The notes under the pieces were generated by a model. It worked only from the letters and a program-made list of their open reading frames with translations. It was not told where the DNA came from and searched no databases. From positions 1 through 25,365 of the IMG/VR virus record IMGVR_UViG_3300030104_003565: a stretch of 25,365 nt of DNA; one strand, given 5' to 3'. Shown here in pieces: positions 547-13,116 of the stretch. The translations under genes were made by a program, and so were the position numbers. The stretch is from a virus. Position 1 is the first letter of the stretch; each line of letters starts with the position of its first letter.

Positions 547-909
547 TTATTTATTAGTAATTAATTTAGTTTCTGTTCTATATGCAAGACGTTTATCTTT
601 TTGGTGGTCTGCAACACCTTCATTGTTCCAAATTATGCTCCGCCATAATTTAATCCATTTATAATAAGTTTTTGCATTTATGCTAAAATCATCTGTGTTG
701 CGGACACCATTCCAGAAGCTCATTTCAACATCCCTCCACAAAAGTGATGAAAAGGATTTCTTTAAATCAGATGCTAAACTTTGAGCCATTAAAACTTTTG
801 TTTTTGCATCTATGTTATGTTGACCCAAATCCAAATAAGTTTTAGATAATAATTCAACACACATTTTAGTTAATTCAGATTCACTTATTTTTTTTATCAT
901 TTTCTTCAA
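547..909 (-). CDS. Hypothetical protein, possibly replication-associated
   Basis: This encodes 120 aa, helical and mildly basic, with a conserved-looking centre (LASDLKKSFSSLLWRDVEMSF, then WNGVRNTDDFSINAKTYYKWIK) rich in aromatic residues. I recognise the general pattern from small proteins that accompany phage replication initiators but cannot name a family. Two ATG codons are possible (residues 1 and 4). It overlaps the end of the upstream helix-turn-helix protein by 29 nt, an arrangement that favours co-translation and a shared process. A helicase-loader-type partner of the upstream protein is one hypothesis, based only on position. Confidence 0.75.
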   Translation of the reverse strand: MKKMIKKISESELTKMCVELLSKTYLDLGQHNIDAKTKVLMAQSLASDLKKSFSSLLWRDVEMSFWNGVRNTDDFSINAKTYYKWIKLWRSIIWNNEGVADHQKDKRLAYRTETKLITNK

Positions 910-2990: not shown

Positions 2991-3172
2991 ATATTATAGT
3001 ATTTACAGTATTCTATATTTTTTCTTTTATCTAATTCTATTTGTGCAATATTTCTTAATTGTTTTTTTTCTGTTGCACAAGTATCTTGCATAAAAAATAA
3101 TAATACTTCTGTACTACTTGCTTCTGCACATGCTTTTGCTTTTGCATATTCTGATTTTGAAAGTTTTTTCAT
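2987..3172 (-). CDS. Hypothetical 61-aa protein downstream of the hammerhead ribozyme
   Basis: This encodes 61 aa, MKKLSKSEYAKAKACAEASS at the N-terminus, followed by a helical, lysine-rich stretch with four cysteines. The family is unknown. The frame stays open to an ATG at 3241, but the extra 23 codons are just the ribozyme read as protein. The ATG at 3172 is therefore chosen; it also has the A-rich leader typical of this genome. The gene sits about 30 nt downstream of the predicted ribozyme cleavage site, so cleavage would release an mRNA starting with this gene. It overlaps the next gene in an ATGA junction. Confidence 0.7.
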   Translation of the reverse strand: MKKLSKSEYAKAKACAEASSTEVLLFFMQDTCATEKKQLRNIAQIELDKRKNIEYCKYYNI

Positions 3173-3201
3173 TTTTGTTTTTTTTATTAATATTTGTTTT
3201 T

Positions 3202-3250
3202 GATTAAGACGCTTCACAGCGTTTCGCCCATTAGGGCTCATCAGTTAATC
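3202..3250 (-). ncRNA. Type I hammerhead ribozyme (self-cleaving RNA)
   Basis: Read on the minus strand, every hammerhead element is present in order: stem I 5' strand GAUUAA (3250-3245), core CUGAUGA (3244-3238), stem II GCCC/GGGC with a UAAU loop (3237-3226), core GAA (3225-3223), stem III ACGC/GCGU with loop UGUGAA (3222-3209), cleavage nucleotide C (3208), and stem I 3' strand UUAAUC (3207-3202). All three stems are perfectly paired, and A15.1-U16.1 and G10.1-C11.1 are as required. Predicted cleavage lies between 3208 and 3207, after GUC. The open ends lie in stem I, so this is type I. It separates the 81-aa gene from the 61-aa gene in one operon. Hammerheads are known from phages and marine metagenomes; the role here is inferred to be mRNA processing. 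Confidence 0.94.
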
Positions 3251-3270: not shown

Positions 3271-3516
3271 TTAAAATTGTTTTGGAGTTTTTAATACTTT
3301 GTCAGCTTTTATCATTTCCATTGCAAATTTTAATATTGTGTATTGACATAATTCAACTACTATCATTCTACTTGCATTTAATGTATGCTCTGAAGTTATT
3401 ACAGCCGCATTTGATGTGCATCTTAAGTGTACTGTAGTTACTTTGTTTTCAAATACTTTTACTTCAGCTATCATGTATGCGAAGTTGTTTTCTACTTTTA
3501 CTGGTGTTAATTTCAT
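3271..3516 (-). CDS. Hypothetical 81-aa protein, first gene of the left operon
   Basis: This encodes 81 aa. The first half alternates hydrophobic residues as in a small beta-sheet (FAYMIAEVKVFENKVTTVHL, TSNAAVITSEH). The second half is helical (MIVVELCQYTILKFAMEMIK). I recognise no family. Its leader, ending AAAACAAAAACAAATG, is nearly the same as the leader of the 61-aa gene behind the ribozyme. It is the first gene after the intrinsic terminator of the metallophosphoesterase and its presumed promoter region, so it is likely among the first products of this operon. Its 3' end precedes the ribozyme by about 20 nt, so cleavage would leave it on an RNA ending in the ribozyme's stems II and III. 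Confidence 0.75.
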   Translation of the reverse strand: MKLTPVKVENNFAYMIAEVKVFENKVTTVHLRCTSNAAVITSEHTLNASRMIVVELCQYTILKFAMEMIKADKVLKTPKQF

Positions 3517-3633
3517 TTGTTTTTGTTTTAATTAATATTTGTTTGATGCTGTAAAAGTAATTAATTTTTTAACATAAAAGCATAAAAATGATAAAAACTT
3601 TACATTTATTTTAATTTACTAGATAAAGATAAA
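3517..3633 (-). promoter_or_regulatory. Presumed promoter and leader region of the left operon
   Basis: This is a non-coding AT-rich stretch between the intrinsic terminator at 3634-3662 and the first gene of the left operon. On the minus strand, TACTTTTA (3559-3552) is one base from the Bacteroidota -7 element TAnnTTTG. No clear TTG-type -33 box precedes it. Just upstream is TATGTTAAAAAATTAATTACT, minus its last base a motif that recurs almost unchanged after the terminase gene at 23072-23053. A promoter must lie here if the terminator works, but the exact box is a weak call. Confidence 0.45.
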
Positions 3634-3662
3634 TAAAAAAAAGCCCCTTAAAAAAGAGGCTT
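3634..3662 (-). terminator. Intrinsic terminator after the metallophosphoesterase gene
   Basis: On the minus strand AAGCCTC (3662-3656) pairs with GGGGCTT (3647-3641), giving seven pairs including one G-U. The loop is A/T and the stem is followed at once by a run of T (3640-3635). This is the clearest rho-independent terminator in the window. It lies some 60 nt after the metallophosphoesterase stop and divides that transcript from the left operon. Confidence 0.85.
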
Positions 3663-3725
3663 CTTCCAACAAGATATTATAAAAACAATATTTTTAACTT
3701 AAAAAAACAGCCAAATATATAAAAA

Positions 3726-4952
3726 TTATATTACAATTTTAAAAACTGTTTGTTTTTTATGTGTTTTATCTAGGCTTTTAGCATTGTAAGCTGATAGTTC
3801 TTTATTTATTGCATAGCCTTTAAAACCTTTTGTGTGCTGTAAATCAATCCTTATATCATGTCTTTCCTTATCTTTCATAATATATATATTCTGAGCCGCC
3901 CTTGAGCTTAATAATAAAGCATTTTCACTATAAGCATTAGCACCAACTAAACTAGAGCTTCTTGCAAACATATCAGTTATCTTAGTTTCATGCAAATGCC
4001 CACAAATCATAAAATCAAGTATTATTCCATTTCTAGCATATTTACTAATTACTTTTGCTATCTTATCATTTTGCATATTTCCTAATTGATGCCCATGTAT
4101 TAGCAAAACATTATGCCCATTAACCTCAACAACTAATTCTAAGCCACCAGATGTAATAAAATTAATATCTGGCAACAACATTCTAAGTATTTCAAAGATG
4201 GTAAAATCGTAGTTGTCCGAACTGACCAAATCGACCCAACCCAGCTCATAAGCTCTTGATTCATTTCCAGAAACACAACCAACACTTACATTTGCAATGC
4301 TATTTAAATCTAAAATAAAATGCTTTAATAAGTGAACACCAAGAAATGTTGCTTTTGCCCTATTAGTTGACATTGCTAATTTTTCATCTAATCTTCTATC
4401 TGAATTTAATAAATCACCAGTAATTGCAATAAATATCTCACTAACATTGTAAAAAGTAGCATATTCTTTTATGTGATGTGCAAACTTTTGTAACCTCTTA
4501 GATGCTACTTCAAAATCATATTTATTATGTTTTAAATCAACAAGCTCATTATAATGATGGTCAGCAATTTGCACAATGATTGCTTGTTTGCCTTTAGATT
4601 CATGTTGCTTTATTGTTGTTTTAAGGCTCTCAGTTTTAAGAATATCTATCAAAGCCTTATTGTATTCAACTAAAGCGTTTTCAAGCCTTACATGCTCTCT
4701 AAATGATTTATTTTTTATTCTGTTAAGGTCAGCTTGTTTTTGACTTCTTTTTGCAAGTTTTAAGTTTTCTTCAATAACTTCTTTGTCAGCTATTTCATAT
4801 TGAATTATGTCTTTTATTCTGTGCCTTAAACTATGTTTTTTTACATCTAAATGATACTTGTCAATTAAATGTTGTGCAATGCCTTGATAGCCATTTCCAT
4901 TCCAAAAATGTTCTATTATTTCGTCTTTATAAACTAAATATTTAGATTCCAT
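3726..4952 (-). CDS. Metallophosphoesterase with N-terminal helix-turn-helix-like region
   Basis: This encodes 408 aa. From about residue 125 it is a calcineurin-like metallophosphoesterase with the motifs in order: D-x-H-type IADHHYNE (131-133), GD (179-180, ITGDLLN), GNES (229-232), HGH (286-288) and GHLHE (318-322). These ligands bind two metal ions in enzymes that hydrolyse phosphodiesters or phosphomonoesters. Residues ~8-50 (IIEHFWNGNGYQGIAQHLID, then SLRHRIKDII) resemble a helix-turn-helix, and 55-110 is a charged helical linker, so the enzyme is probably directed to DNA. It stands alone between a ~200-nt repeat-rich intergenic region and a strong terminator, so it is probably a separate transcription unit. 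The substrate is unknown; DNA end processing or host DNA degradation are candidates. Confidence 0.88.
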   Translation of the reverse strand: MESKYLVYKDEIIEHFWNGNGYQGIAQHLIDKYHLDVKKHSLRHRIKDIIQYEIADKEVIEENLKLAKRSQKQADLNRIKNKSFREHVRLENALVEYNKALIDILKTESLKTTIKQHESKGKQAIIVQIADHHYNELVDLKHNKYDFEVASKRLQKFAHHIKEYATFYNVSEIFIAITGDLLNSDRRLDEKLAMSTNRAKATFLGVHLLKHFILDLNSIANVSVGCVSGNESRAYELGWVDLVSSDNYDFTIFEILRMLLPDINFITSGGLELVVEVNGHNVLLIHGHQLGNMQNDKIAKVISKYARNGIILDFMICGHLHETKITDMFARSSSLVGANAYSENALLLSSRAAQNIYIMKDKERHDIRIDLQHTKGFKGYAINKELSAYNAKSLDKTHKKQTVFKIVI

Positions 4953-6723: not shown

Positions 6724-9700
6724 TTATTCAAAAGAGGCAATTGTCCTTGTAACAACTGTTCCTCCTACATTTATTTTTACTTTTATAGCTCCATCAGCTG
6801 AATCCATATATATTGATGATTTATTATTTGCTGGGTCAGATGGAGTTGATATTGCATTTAAAGTTAATACATCTTCCAACTCTAATACACTTTGCACTCT
6901 TTGTTTTCCTACAACGTCTAATTTATAAACAGCTCCAGCAGTTCCACCCACCGACATATTACCATTTGGAATATTTACAGCCCCAGCTGATTTTACTCCT
7001 AAAGTTAAAGAATTTGCTGTTGCTAAATTACCAACAGATGTAACAGTATTACTTGCATTTGTAACTGTTGTAACTAAATGTCCGTTTTCGTTAGTATCTC
7101 TTAAAATATCTGAAATAACTCTAACTGCCTTAACATTTCCATTTACTTGCAGCTTATCCCCACTATCAGTTGTTGTTCCAATTAAAAAATTTCCGCCAGA
7201 TTTTATTCTAAATCTTTCTGTATTAGATGTTAAACCTATTATGTCAGAACTATTTACTTGTAATTTTATATCTTTATTTTGACCATTATCACCTAAATAA
7301 ACAGCACTATTAAACCAACCAACAACAGCTCTACTATTGAAATGTATTTTAGCAGTATCACCTATTTGACCTCCATTTGGCTGTAAATAAATATTAATAT
7401 TATCAGAACTATTTGAATCAAAAAATATATTTCCATTATTACTTCTTATAATTGGACTTGAATTTGAATTGCTTCCAAATCCATTTGCATTACTTCCTAA
7501 ATGCAAAAACTTTTCTGAACTTATTTTTACATCACCATTTACTTGCAGTTTGCTAGAGCCATCGTCAGTTGTTGTTCCTATAAGTAGATTTTTATGTACA
7601 TTAACAGTTCCAGTTCCATTAGGAATTAAATTTATGTCTGCATTAGTTTCACTTGAAGTAATTTCTAAACCAGAATTTCTTGACAATCTTGAAAACTCTG
7701 TTCCACTACTTCTTAAAACAATATCATTTCCACCAGCATCTAATCTTATGTCATCTCCAGCTGTTACTGTTAAATCACCACTTGATGAAGATGAAAAGGC
7801 AACATTTCCAGAGCCATTTATAATCTTTACAGTTCCAGCAACTTGCAGTTTACTAGAGCCATCGTCTGTTGTTGTTCCAATGAGTACGTTTCCACCAGAT
7901 GTCAAGCGCATTGCTTCAGAAACAGATGTGCCATTAGTTGACGTTGAAAAGAACATGTCTGTGTCACCTGCACCAGGACTATTAGTTCTTATTGCACCAA
8001 TTTTAGCTGATGTGCCAGAACTTGCTAATCTAAAATCAAAACTAAAACCAGTATCATTTGCTCCAGCAGAATTTTCTAATAACAAGTTACTTATTACACC
8101 GCCTTGATTATGTTTAAAATGAGCAACAGTTAAATTATTAGTAGTTGTTTCATCTACTGTTAATTTAGCACTATCAGTTGTTGTTCCAATGAGTAGGTTT
8201 CCGCCAGATGTCAAACGCATTTTTTCAGAGCCACCAGTTTTAAACTCTATTTGTGCGTCATTTGTTGCTGATATTTCTTGGTTACCATTACCCCAGCTTA
8301 TTCGCTGTGTAGTACCCATGTAAATATAACTACTAACAGCAGCTGAGCCAAGTACATGTAAAGTAGCAAGAGGATTTGTAGTTCCTATTCCTAATCGTCC
8401 GCCAGATGTAAGACGCATTCTTTCAGATTCTGTACCTGAACTTGATGTGTAAAACGCCATTTCATTACTTTGCGTTCCAGCTCCACCAGCATAAATTTTT
8501 TGAACACCATTTGTTGTTGAAATAGAAAAGTAAGAGTTTCCATCACTTTCTATTCTAAATTCTTGATTTGCTGTTCCAAACGAGCCTAATTGCAAATTTG
8601 CAAGTGGATTTACAGTTGATATTCCAAAATTTCCGCCATCAGTAATCCTTGCAAGTTCTGTGCTACCAAAGTTTTTAAATTTAATTGGCTCACCACTTGC
8701 AGCTGGTTTGAAAGCATCAGCCATTGAATCACCAGTTATTAATGCATCACCAACAACATGAATTTTTTCTGAGGGAGTTAAAGTACCAAAACCAGTATTA
8801 GCTCCATCTATATATATTTGTGTGCCTGCAAAAGTACCGATGGATACATCACCAGCAGTTGACCTGATTTCTAAATTAGCTGACTGAAAATAACCAATAA
8901 AACCACCCTTTGCACCAGTTGAATCATACCAGCTTAAATCACTATTTAATTCACTTCTTGATGCTGCACTTGTGTCATCAATTCTTATATTAGGATTATT
9001 TCCAGCTAAATTTAAAATCTCACTAGGGCTTGACGCCCCAATTCCTACGTTTCCTCCTCCAGTTATTGTAACTTTATCTGAGCCACCAGTTTTAAAATTA
9101 ATAGCTCTTGCAGTAGAATCATGACCAATATCTAAACCAACATTATCCATGTAAAACAATGTAGAATAACCACTTGTACTATTAGCTGCAAAATCAAAAC
9201 TTGCATTAGAGCCAATATCTATTCCAACAGCTGTGCTATCATTAGAAGATGAAACATTAAGTTTATGTGATGGACTGGAAGAACTACCTATCATTATGCT
9301 ATTAGTAGTGGTATTGCCATTATCTGTAACCTCTTGCAAATCATTATTAGCTCCTATTTGAGCATCAACGTACCCTTTACTTGCAGCATCAGTTGAAGCA
9401 ACTGGGGTGGCTGGAATTGTTACTTGTCCACTAAATGTTGCGGTATTATTATTCCCATCTAAAACTAAAACTTCAACACCATCATTTGGCATTATTTTAA
9501 ATTGACTACCAACACTTAATAGCCTTGTATAATTGCTAGAATCAACAATTCTTATTTCTGCAATACTATCACCAGCACTTCTAAAAGTTGCAACTAAATT
9601 ATCAGAACCAGAATCAACTACTAATCTTGACGTGCCGACTTCACTTGTACCTCCAATAAGTAATTTACCCCCAGATGTCAAACGCATTGCCTCAGAATTA

Positions 9701-12700
9701 TTTGGATGAAATGTTATAGGCTGAGTTGCTAATGTTTTTATAGCTAAAGAAAAGCTACCCACTATACTGTTATATCCAAGAGAAACTCGCTGTGATTGGC
9801 TTAAAGCGTAAGCACTAATAATTTCTGTAGTACCCACATTATCACCACTAATAACTTGTAGTTTGTGTGATGGGCTGGATGAACTACCAATCATTATACT
9901 GTTAGTCGTAGTATTTCCTACTGTTGTTACTTCTTGCAAACTATCTGTTGCAGATACTTGACCATCAACGTATGCCTTTATACTTTCACTTGTTGCTAAA
10001 CTTGTAGCACTTGCAGTTCCAAAACTATCATCATCTATATAACTACTAATTGCAACACTACCAGAATCAATACTTGTTGCTGTAATATCAAAGCCACCAA
10101 CTGTTCCTTTTGTTTTGTTTTGATATTGAGCCGCTAAGTCATCTTGATTTATTAAAACAATTGACCCAATGTCTATATCATCAAACAATGCTGTTGATGT
10201 AACATTAATTACAGTATCACCAGCACTTTGATTTGATGTTACATTCAACTCCATTATTTCACCACTATTAGAGTTAATTAAATTAAATGTATCACCGCTT
10301 TTAAATACAGCCGAATCTAGAGGCTCAATCGGTACTTGACTTAATGATTTTTGCTCTTCTATTCTAACAAAAGTGACTGTTCCAGTAAATGTTGTTCCAG
10401 CTTGAAATTTTATTTGTGTATTTCCTAAACATTGTTTGTAGATTATGTAATCACCACTTGATGTTATAGATTGAGACCCACCAGTTGTTCCAGCTTTTAC
10501 AGTCAATGTTCCAGCTGTAACCTCTACTCTAAAACTTATTTTATATGTTTTTTCTAATTCTAAAACATCTTGAATTAAATCACTTGTTGAGCCAGTTGCA
10601 GTAAATTTAGCTTTTGAAATAGTTGTGTCAATACTCCATCCAGTTCCTAAAGTCCAACCAGTTGCAACATTAAAGTTACCATTTACAGAAACATTTGAGC
10701 CAGTAGAAGCAACAGTTGTTCTTAAATATGCAACTGGAGCATTTTGCATTAAAGCATTTGTAACTGGTCCTTGCATTCTAGCGTTTGACAATGGTGCGTC
10801 ATCTTGAGCACCACCTAAACCACCCAAATCATTTGTTGTTGTTGTTGCTGTGACAGTATCTCTTATAATTTGATAACCCTCATAGTCCCATTCATCTTGT
10901 AAAGTAAAAAAACTACCTCTTCTAAAGATATATTCTGGGTCAGTTTCATTGCTTCTCGTTTCTCTTAGCCTACCAATTGGGTTTACAAATCTTGGTCTTG
11001 TTGCTGGTCCACTACTTCCAGTAGATGTTTGGTTTTTTAAAGATTCACTTACTATCAATCTCATTGTTGGTGATATAACAACTTTAACTTGACCACTTAA
11101 AAATTCATCAATAAGTAATTCTGTAAATGTTTTTGCACCACTTAAAGTGCCTCGACCCCATTCTCCAGCTGGATTTGTTTTAATATATGTGCTACCATTG
11201 TTAACTCTTAAAGCTCCTATTGTAGCTTGTAAAACAGCATCACCCCAAATTAAAGTTCCAAAGTCATGCATTTCAGTATTATTACTGTTGTTTATAGTAG
11301 TTACAACTTGATTTCCATAAGATGCATTTTGTGTTGTGTTTAAAGTTTGTAAAAAGCCCACAAAAGCAGAGTTTGTAACTAATTGAATATCTGGTTGAGC
11401 TGTTCCAGCATTAAAAGTAACTGGAACACTTGTGCTAGGTACTAATATTTGTGATGGGTCTTGTAAAGTATTTGACCAGCTTACTGTTCCAGATGGTGTT
11501 GTTCCACTTCCAGATGGATTTGGCAATAAAATATGAACTTGTGGATTTCTTTGAATTACTGTGCCACTAAAATTATTATAACCACTAAAACGACAAAAGA
11601 AAGAGCCACCATTTTGTGTTGCATAGTCCTCAATGTCTAAAAAGAATGACCACGCACCATTCATTGTTATTGCATTTCCACTAGCATCAACAAATGGAAT
11701 TTGTTCTTGAAAACCTATATAATTTGTTTCTACGTTACGTCTTGACTTAATAACATACTTTGGTGATTTAACTATTGGTGACCAGTCAGCTTTTAAAACC
11801 CAGTAGTAAGTTCCAGTTGTTTGTTCATATTGCAAATAATATTCTGTTATGTTACCTAAAGAATCAATATTTGTAGCATAAAAATTAAACTTAATAGAGC
11901 ACCACCATCCACCAGTATGTTCAATAATATTAGAGTTAGATAAATCCCAAACCCAATTTAATGGAATCGATAAAAATAAAAAGTTTGCACTTGATGGGTC
12001 AATTATAGTTCCTTGAAATATTTCTTGACTTGTTGCATTAGTTCCAAATGGAAAACCGCCATAATAATTTTTTGAGGCAAAACTTAAAAAATCAGCTGAA
12101 GCTCTATGTGTAATAGGTAAATAATTATATTTTGTTCCAACTAATTTACTTATTTGATTTGGACCAACTGTTTGTTCATATCTAGTAAAAAACGTATCAC
12201 CTAAATGGTCTTGACTTGACAGTTGAGTTCCGCTTTTATTATATTGTCTTGTATTGATATTGTTTGGATTATCAATTAAACCAGTTTCATCTTGTATGTA
12301 TTCTGGTATTTGTACAATCCAAAACTCATGTTTCCAATAAGTTATCCTAGCACCCCAATGCCTTAAAAGCTCTTTTAATACTGTATAGCAATTTTCTGGA
12401 GTAAATACTTGTTGGTCGTTTTTTGTATGAAACATTGAGACCACACATTTGGTATTTCCAAAAGGGTCAAAGTTTTGATTTGTATTTGGCATTGCTCCAT
12501 TATACCAATTTATTGCAGTTGTAAAGCCATAATCTTGAGTTGAGCCTTGAGATGTTGTTGCACATCCAGCTTTTAATAATATTTCTTTTATCCAAAAAGT
12601 ATAAACAGCTGGTCCAAAGTACATATTTTCTTGTGCATAGTTACCCATAACCCTATCCTCAAAATCCTCATTGCTTAAATCAACAAAATCAATATCTTTT

Positions 12701-13116
12701 AAAAGAGCTAAACCATCAACAAAAGTTAATTTTTGCTCATATGGAAATGAAACATCTTCACCAGCACCCAAATCCATAACCATAAATCCAGACCATAAAG
12801 GTTTTGTTCCACTATATGTTGAGCTAGAGGCTCTATATAAATGTAAATAAATTTGTCTTTCTTGAAAAGTAGTTCTAAGTTCCTCTATAAAATCTTGATG
12901 TGACGTATTTTGAACTAGAAAAGGTAACTCACATTGTGAACTTAATATTGGTGAAAATCTATCCTCTTGGTCAGTTTCGTAAGTTATGACTGGTCCGCCT
13001 TTTCCTAATACTATCTCTGTTGCTGTCCCAGAAAAATTAGCTACAAACAGCTCTAGATAATAATCTAAACCATTGTTACTCTTATATGACGAAAAATATT
13101 TTTTTCCAAAACTCAT
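6724..13116 (-). CDS. Giant baseplate/tail fibre protein with repeat-rich C-terminal half
   Basis: This encodes 2130 aa, the largest gene here. Residues ~1-300 resemble the distal tail/baseplate N-terminus of Bacteroidota phage tail proteins (YYLELFVANFSG, FVDGLALLKDIDF, CYTVLKELLRHWGARITYW). A jelly-roll, carbohydrate-binding-like domain is likely at ~808-917 (GNFNVATGWTLGTGWSIDTT onward). From ~1058 to ~2000 it is a fibre shaft of repeated blocks such as MRLTSGGNLLIGTTTDS and SSKLQVNGDV, typical of trimeric beta-structured fibres. The C-terminus (SSIYMDSADGAIKVKINVGG) resembles fibre tips; I see no S74 chaperone domain. It begins 2 nt after the tape measure gene. Role: host recognition and adsorption. 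The joining of baseplate and fibre in one chain is notable. Confidence 0.88.
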   Translation of the reverse strand: MSFGKKYFSSYKSNNGLDYYLELFVANFSGTATEIVLGKGGPVITYETDQEDRFSPILSSQCELPFLVQNTSHQDFIEELRTTFQERQIYLHLYRASSSTYSGTKPLWSGFMVMDLGAGEDVSFPYEQKLTFVDGLALLKDIDFVDLSNEDFEDRVMGNYAQENMYFGPAVYTFWIKEILLKAGCATTSQGSTQDYGFTTAINWYNGAMPNTNQNFDPFGNTKCVVSMFHTKNDQQVFTPENCYTVLKELLRHWGARITYWKHEFWIVQIPEYIQDETGLIDNPNNINTRQYNKSGTQLSSQDHLGDTFFTRYEQTVGPNQISKLVGTKYNYLPITHRASADFLSFASKNYYGGFPFGTNATSQEIFQGTIIDPSSANFLFLSIPLNWVWDLSNSNIIEHTGGWWCSIKFNFYATNIDSLGNITEYYLQYEQTTGTYYWVLKADWSPIVKSPKYVIKSRRNVETNYIGFQEQIPFVDASGNAITMNGAWSFFLDIEDYATQNGGSFFCRFSGYNNFSGTVIQRNPQVHILLPNPSGSGTTPSGTVSWSNTLQDPSQILVPSTSVPVTFNAGTAQPDIQLVTNSAFVGFLQTLNTTQNASYGNQVVTTINNSNNTEMHDFGTLIWGDAVLQATIGALRVNNGSTYIKTNPAGEWGRGTLSGAKTFTELLIDEFLSGQVKVVISPTMRLIVSESLKNQTSTGSSGPATRPRFVNPIGRLRETRSNETDPEYIFRRGSFFTLQDEWDYEGYQIIRDTVTATTTTNDLGGLGGAQDDAPLSNARMQGPVTNALMQNAPVAYLRTTVASTGSNVSVNGNFNVATGWTLGTGWSIDTTISKAKFTATGSTSDLIQDVLELEKTYKISFRVEVTAGTLTVKAGTTGGSQSITSSGDYIIYKQCLGNTQIKFQAGTTFTGTVTFVRIEEQKSLSQVPIEPLDSAVFKSGDTFNLINSNSGEIMELNVTSNQSAGDTVINVTSTALFDDIDIGSIVLINQDDLAAQYQNKTKGTVGGFDITATSIDSGSVAISSYIDDDSFGTASATSLATSESIKAYVDGQVSATDSLQEVTTVGNTTTNSIMIGSSSSPSHKLQVISGDNVGTTEIISAYALSQSQRVSLGYNSIVGSFSLAIKTLATQPITFHPNNSEAMRLTSGGKLLIGGTSEVGTSRLVVDSGSDNLVATFRSAGDSIAEIRIVDSSNYTRLLSVGSQFKIMPNDGVEVLVLDGNNNTATFSGQVTIPATPVASTDAASKGYVDAQIGANNDLQEVTDNGNTTTNSIMIGSSSSPSHKLNVSSSNDSTAVGIDIGSNASFDFAANSTSGYSTLFYMDNVGLDIGHDSTARAINFKTGGSDKVTITGGGNVGIGASSPSEILNLAGNNPNIRIDDTSAASRSELNSDLSWYDSTGAKGGFIGYFQSANLEIRSTAGDVSIGTFAGTQIYIDGANTGFGTLTPSEKIHVVGDALITGDSMADAFKPAASGEPIKFKNFGSTELARITDGGNFGISTVNPLANLQLGSFGTANQEFRIESDGNSYFSISTTNGVQKIYAGGAGTQSNEMAFYTSSSGTESERMRLTSGGRLGIGTTNPLATLHVLGSAAVSSYIYMGTTQRISWGNGNQEISATNDAQIEFKTGGSEKMRLTSGGNLLIGTTTDSAKLTVDETTTNNLTVAHFKHNQGGVISNLLLENSAGANDTGFSFDFRLASSGTSAKIGAIRTNSPGAGDTDMFFSTSTNGTSVSEAMRLTSGGNVLIGTTTDDGSSKLQVAGTVKIINGSGNVAFSSSSSGDLTVTAGDDIRLDAGGNDIVLRSSGTEFSRLSRNSGLEITSSETNADINLIPNGTGTVNVHKNLLIGTTTDDGSSKLQVNGDVKISSEKFLHLGSNANGFGSNSNSSPIIRSNNGNIFFDSNSSDNINIYLQPNGGQIGDTAKIHFNSRAVVGWFNSAVYLGDNGQNKDIKLQVNSSDIIGLTSNTERFRIKSGGNFLIGTTTDSGDKLQVNGNVKAVRVISDILRDTNENGHLVTTVTNASNTVTSVGNLATANSLTLGVKSAGAVNIPNGNMSVGGTAGAVYKLDVVGKQRVQSVLELEDVLTLNAISTPSDPANNKSSIYMDSADGAIKVKINVGGTVVTRTIASFE
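7130..9955 (-). repeat. Internal repeats in the tail fibre gene
   Basis: Imperfect DNA and protein repeats encode fibre-shaft blocks. IGTTTD occurs repeatedly (near 8180, 7870, 7570 and 7160), MRLTSGG at least four times (around 9680, 8410, 8210 and 7910), and SIMIGSSSSPSHKL twice (around 9890 and 9290). Neighbouring copies are close at DNA level, for example the GATGGCTCTAG-type blocks near 7560 and 7860. Such repeats can expand, contract or recombine and so change fibre length. Confidence 0.8.

Follow-up and report, generated by a model that had tools for sequence, protein, structure and literature searches.

A type I hammerhead ribozyme with a probable role in intercistronic message processing, located between small genes of an uncultured, marine-type phage

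De la Pena (2017, PMC6155905) notes that hammerhead ribozymes are linked to phages and treats their roles in phages and bacteria as an open question. The closest described systems are clustered hammerheads that flank prophage genes, ardA included, for which a processing of the message into gene-length mRNAs was proposed (Perreault et al. 2011, PMC3088659). That study found activity of tandem phage hammerheads both in vitro and in E. coli, and showed cleavage for some of them (Perreault et al. 2011). Natural hammerheads are accelerated by a contact between loop II and stem I (PMC6155905). Here, we examined a hammerhead in a 25,365-base virus contig (IMG/VR record IMGVR_UViG_3300030104_003565), the whole of which is referred to as the window. 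The contig carries terminase, portal, and tail genes as well as an early gene set, and belongs to an uncultured, marine-type phage; the label "Bacteroidota-type", given to it in a first-pass annotation made from the sequence, is plausible, with indirect support. A 2130-aa protein encoded at 6724-13116 (minus strand) contains many repeats of the type MRLTSGGNLLIGTTTD and is probably a tail fibre.

On the minus strand, from 3250 down to 3202, the RNA reads GAUUAA-CUGAUGA-GCCC(UAAU)GGGC-GAA-ACGCU(GUGA)AGCGU-C-UUAAUC, a complete type I hammerhead with a full core and with six, four, and five base pairs in stems I, II, and III, respectively. The core consensus CUGANGA...GAA, the A15.1-U16.1 pair, and the NUH triplet are present as CUGAUGA, GAA, A3222-U3209, and GUC. 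Folding to minimum free energy (MFE) yields the hammerhead three-way junction (z -3.4), in which stem I is open and stems II and III are closed by loops. Loop II has 4 nt, 5 being commoner, and its sequence UAAU occurs in 19 of 191 distinct hammerheads. The ribozyme lies on the coding strand between two co-directional phage genes, beginning 20 nt past the stop codon of an 81-aa gene and ending 29 nt ahead of the ATG (3172) of a 61-aa gene; it is the only hammerhead copy in the record. The first-pass annotation had reported a complete type I hammerhead at this place, and the sequence, the fold, and the comparative data below bear it out; all its coordinates were right, as were its pair counts for stems I and II, while stem III, credited with four pairs, has five and is closed by a GUGA tetraloop. 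The features are, in the order of transcription:

3271-3516, minus: upstream 81-aa gene; relatives, none found.
3202-3250, minus: type I hammerhead ribozyme, whole; from the sequence and covariance model R1, sub-threshold with Rfam Hammerhead_1 (scores below).
3245-3250, minus: stem I, 5' strand GAUUAA, pairing perfectly with 3207-3202.
3238-3244, minus: catalytic core CUGAUGA, from the sequence.
3226-3237, minus: stem II GCCC/GGGC with loop UAAU, from sequence and fold; loop type co-conserved with the two A residues that flank stem I.
3223-3225, minus: core GAA, from the sequence.
3209-3222, minus: stem III ACGCU/AGCGU with loop GUGA, including A15.1-U16.1, from sequence and fold.
3207-3208, minus: predicted cleavage site between C17 (3208) and U (3207), GUC triplet, placed by its position relative to the hammerhead core.
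3202-3207, minus: stem I, 3' strand UUAAUC, from sequence and fold; after cleavage it would be the 5' end of the downstream product.
3201, minus: A residue next to stem I at its 3' side; the matching A on the other side is 3251.
3173-3207, minus: 35-nt A-rich leader of the 61-aa gene that cleavage would leave; similar, with the ribozyme, to a Cellulophaga phage (below).
2987-3172, minus: downstream 61-aa gene; relatives, none found.

Neither small gene could be assigned to a PHROGs or Pfam family, and the 81-aa gene had no relatives among the viral contigs. A terminator-like hairpin at 3667-3636 follows the neighboring exonuclease gene, and a new transcript may therefore start with the 81-aa gene. 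A scan for sigma-70 promoters gave no more matches than in shuffles, and a promoter pattern copied from relatives matched at two loci only. On the minus strand, the leaders of the 81-aa (3516-3553) and 61-aa (3172-3207) genes share the string CAAATATTAAT within A-rich surroundings, and only the latter has a ribozyme ahead of it.

The window copy belongs to a large viral group. A descriptor of the core matched once in the window, and 100 shuffles gave no match. A descriptor applied to 1.84 Mb of viral DNA retrieved 214 hammerheads in 121 loci, with none in the reversed control. A search pattern with a fixed core, a partly fixed stem II, and free stems I and III occurred in at least 120 viral contig stretches versus 6 in 257 Gb of prokaryote genomes. 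Among its 129 unique matches, 123 were complete hammerheads and 128 had both free stem II pairs complementary; core and loop II are enriched by design, because the loci were gathered by those features, and stems I and III are not. Whole-record searches revealed up to seven hammerheads per viral contig, with arrays in L163, L088, L189, and others. In contig L106 (4272-4296, plus strand) a second core lies 53 nt past a complete hammerhead, with stems I and III broken, and is probably a decayed copy. Another member (632-655, plus strand) occurs in L140, a viral contig of 424,529 bases, so very large phages may carry the group too.

The structure is kept through compensatory changes. In an alignment of 48 sequences, 100% of the cells are paired, a value partly imposed by the row-choosing descriptor, which demands some pairing, whereas the variety of pair types is not so imposed; both sides change at 13 of 16 pairs, and the covariation score is 0.857 versus 0.16 in shuffles. 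Sliding the partners destroys the pairing signal. Outside the stems, an A flanks stem I on each side in all 166 hammerheads with a U..U loop II of 4-5 nt, versus 11 of 27 with other loops, in a set of related sequences for which a p-value would be inexact. The window hammerhead has both the U..U loop and the two A residues. This association is consistent with a loop II-stem I contact, and does not prove one.

Relatives of the exonuclease are encoded in at least 80 contigs. Among the matches listed, the closest (about 90-97% identity over the exonuclease) have neither the 81-aa gene, the ribozyme, nor the 61-aa gene, and align on both sides of the missing block; the ribozyme is thus dispensable. 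In more distant relatives (L039, L040, L043 with two copies, and L048) hammerheads occupy the same operon position, downstream of the exonuclease and between small genes. In L191 and L105, two contigs that share other window genes, the hammerheads match the window copy in stem I and match it fully or almost fully in stem III. Outside these contigs, we found a homologue in a cultured phage of Cellulophaga baltica, phi19:3 (21818-21768, minus strand), with 81% identity over 74 nt, leader included. Since none of the window genes tested had a match in phi19:3, ribozyme and leader behave as a module of their own. In phi18:3 a ribozyme precedes the same gene as in phi19:3, with a stem III that is entirely different yet paired, and in phi13:2 and phi46:3 no hammerhead was found ahead of that gene. 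A literature search, which did not cover preprints and beside which unpublished or subscription work may exist, returned no paper on Cellulophaga phage hammerheads. The same phages hold two further elements. A Pistol ribozyme (RF02679; Rfam, 46.5 bits) sits between two small genes in phi19:3 (L208, 20369-20436, minus strand) and phi46:3 (L210, 3935-4002, plus strand), near the hammerhead in the former, which places two ribozyme classes in one phage gene block. The anti-restriction gene ardA lies at 3403-3969 in phi13:2 (L211) and 3378-3944 in phi18:3 (L212), a few genes past the gene next to the hammerhead site.

Across the group, the placement relative to genes is precise. For 129 of 160 hammerheads, the stop codon of the upstream ORF ends between -10 and +13 nt relative to stem I, compared with 201 of 1,665 (12%) random same-strand positions with a nearby ORF end. 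The next start lies a median of 24 nt downstream, and 167 of 191 hammerheads have an ATG-started ORF within 70 nt. The genes that follow are of many kinds, mostly unknown, and include a few for anti-restriction, RNA polymerase, DNA ligase, and MazG; this rules out a single constant gene served by the hammerheads, and indicates that the ribozyme serves the intergenic position rather than one gene. Ribosomes that terminate at the stop codon should hinder the folding of the hammerhead, which often adjoins that codon or overlaps it; by further inference, cleavage might be coupled to translation.

From the motif, its homology and covariation, its intergenic position, and its presence or absence in sister phages, all of them observed, we suggest that the window element is, in all likelihood, a hammerhead carried in sense orientation by a polycistronic phage message, which it cuts between small genes. 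The RNA is very probably self-cleaving. For cleavage, its timing, and its effect on mRNA stability or expression, we infer the following course. The hammerhead would fold during transcription and cut between C3208 and U3207. The upstream piece, with the 81-aa gene, would have the folded ribozyme and a 2',3'-cyclic phosphate at its 3' end; the downstream piece, with the 61-aa gene and the replication genes that follow, would carry a 5'-OH at its 5' end, 35 nt ahead of the start codon. The chemistry of such products follows established hammerhead biochemistry. In this way, accessory small genes would probably be split from their neighbors into separate mRNAs with defined, nuclease-resistant ends. 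Against this reading stand the single copy in the record, its absence from the closest relatives listed, the sub-threshold Rfam score, and a loop II of less common length. A less favored reading takes the ribozyme for a relic, active in the past, carried along with a mobile gene cassette and now without function. The patchy distribution, the want of relatives for both flanking genes, and the degenerate tandem copy in L106 agree with it, but the window copy has no defect in core or stems; since intact stems, loop II, and flanking A residues are unexpected in a neutral relic, we regard this as unlikely.

The hammerheads of one phage also resemble each other in stem I to an unexpected degree. Within phages, the ratio of stem I distances to those in shuffles is 0.45 (z -14), compared with 0.80 for stem II, 0.71 for stem III, and 0.73 for the downstream leader, and the likeness survives GC-binned shuffling. 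Of 90 within-contig pairs in which neither stem II nor stem III is the same, 33 have an identical stem I, versus 2.3% between contigs. A shared stem I could reflect gene conversion, a functional 5' end held in common, or ribozyme halves that can be exchanged and so permit ligation. Under the last option, an active ribozyme would serve RNA ligation or recombination beyond cutting, giving circular or rearranged mRNAs: as stem I is common to the ribozymes of one phage, every product that bears a ribozyme could ligate any product that starts with a 5'-OH. If true, phages would possess a ribozyme cut-and-ligate system for their mRNAs, in which the shared stem I lets pieces re-join in new orders or circularize. 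Both the excess of identical stems I within contigs and the low distance ratio, not explained by base composition, speak for such a system. Yet the likeness of stem I could also be maintained by gene conversion or by selection for a common 5' leader, or stem from recent duplication; the single-copy window does not bear on the pattern, and spliced or circular products were sought and none found by Perreault et al. (2011, PMC3088659). We regard ligation as an improbable function. Whatever its cause, any functional model must account for the shared stem I.

Rfam Hammerhead_1 (RF00163) assigns the window copy 24.7 bits (171-nt search, E 3.4e-4), short of the gathering score of 34 bits. The first-pass annotation had proposed this search and named the lack of a covariance-model hit as grounds for rejection; taken literally, that is the outcome at the gathering score, whereas model R1, built from 48 viral-contig hammerheads with the window excluded and run with filters off, gives a single match in the window (3251-3201, 55.5 bits, E 1.1e-14) and nothing else. 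At the Rfam type I cut-off, just 2 of the roughly 48 hammerheads in 12 array-bearing loci are recovered, and the sub-threshold score in the window follows from a model that misses nearly all phage hammerheads of the group. The second-best family, RAGATH-1 (RF03152), is ruled out by a sub-threshold score of 23.9 bits against a cut-off of 56.3 and by an upstream hairpin that is unconvincing in the window. The shortfall against Rfam is also what could favor a chance resemblance or an ordinary hairpin, terminator or regulatory, a reading to which we give practically no credence and which, as the first-pass annotation anticipated in calling a chance match very unlikely, is refuted by the E-value of about 1e-14 from an independent model, the empty reversed control over 1.84 Mb, the compensatory changes in homologues, the same operon position in distant relatives, and the homologues in cultured Cellulophaga phages.

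Overall, the window copy leads to a large group of hammerheads, mostly unannotated and largely missed by Rfam, that sit precisely between stop and start codons and probably serve to divide long phage transcripts into pieces of one gene each. The first-pass annotation held the element worth describing, which is partly right: Perreault et al. (2011, PMC3088659) had already described clustered hammerheads flanking phage genes, and with this precedent and that of De la Pena (2017) the window hammerhead is a further case of a known arrangement and not the first of its kind. Because cultured sister phages exist with and without the ribozyme before the same gene, its function can be tested on Cellulophaga hosts. 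Like the clusters of Perreault et al. (2011), the present hammerheads lie between phage genes, often several per operon, and flank variable genes; unlike those of bacterial prophages, they come from uncultured viral contigs and Cellulophaga phages. Our analysis adds to that description the tight overlap with stop codons, the stem I shared within a phage, the co-conservation of loop II and flanking residues, and a set of sister phages of which some carry the ribozyme and others lack it. The core, the open stem I, and the GUC cleavage site are those of RF00163, whose model nonetheless scores the window copy below its threshold and largely misses the phage group. RAGATH-1 has the same core and differs by its upstream hairpin, not convincingly formed in the window. 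Finally, the Pistol ribozyme of phi19:3 and phi46:3 is likewise a self-cleaving class between small genes, in phi19:3 within the hammerhead region, but represents a different ribozyme class and is absent from the window.
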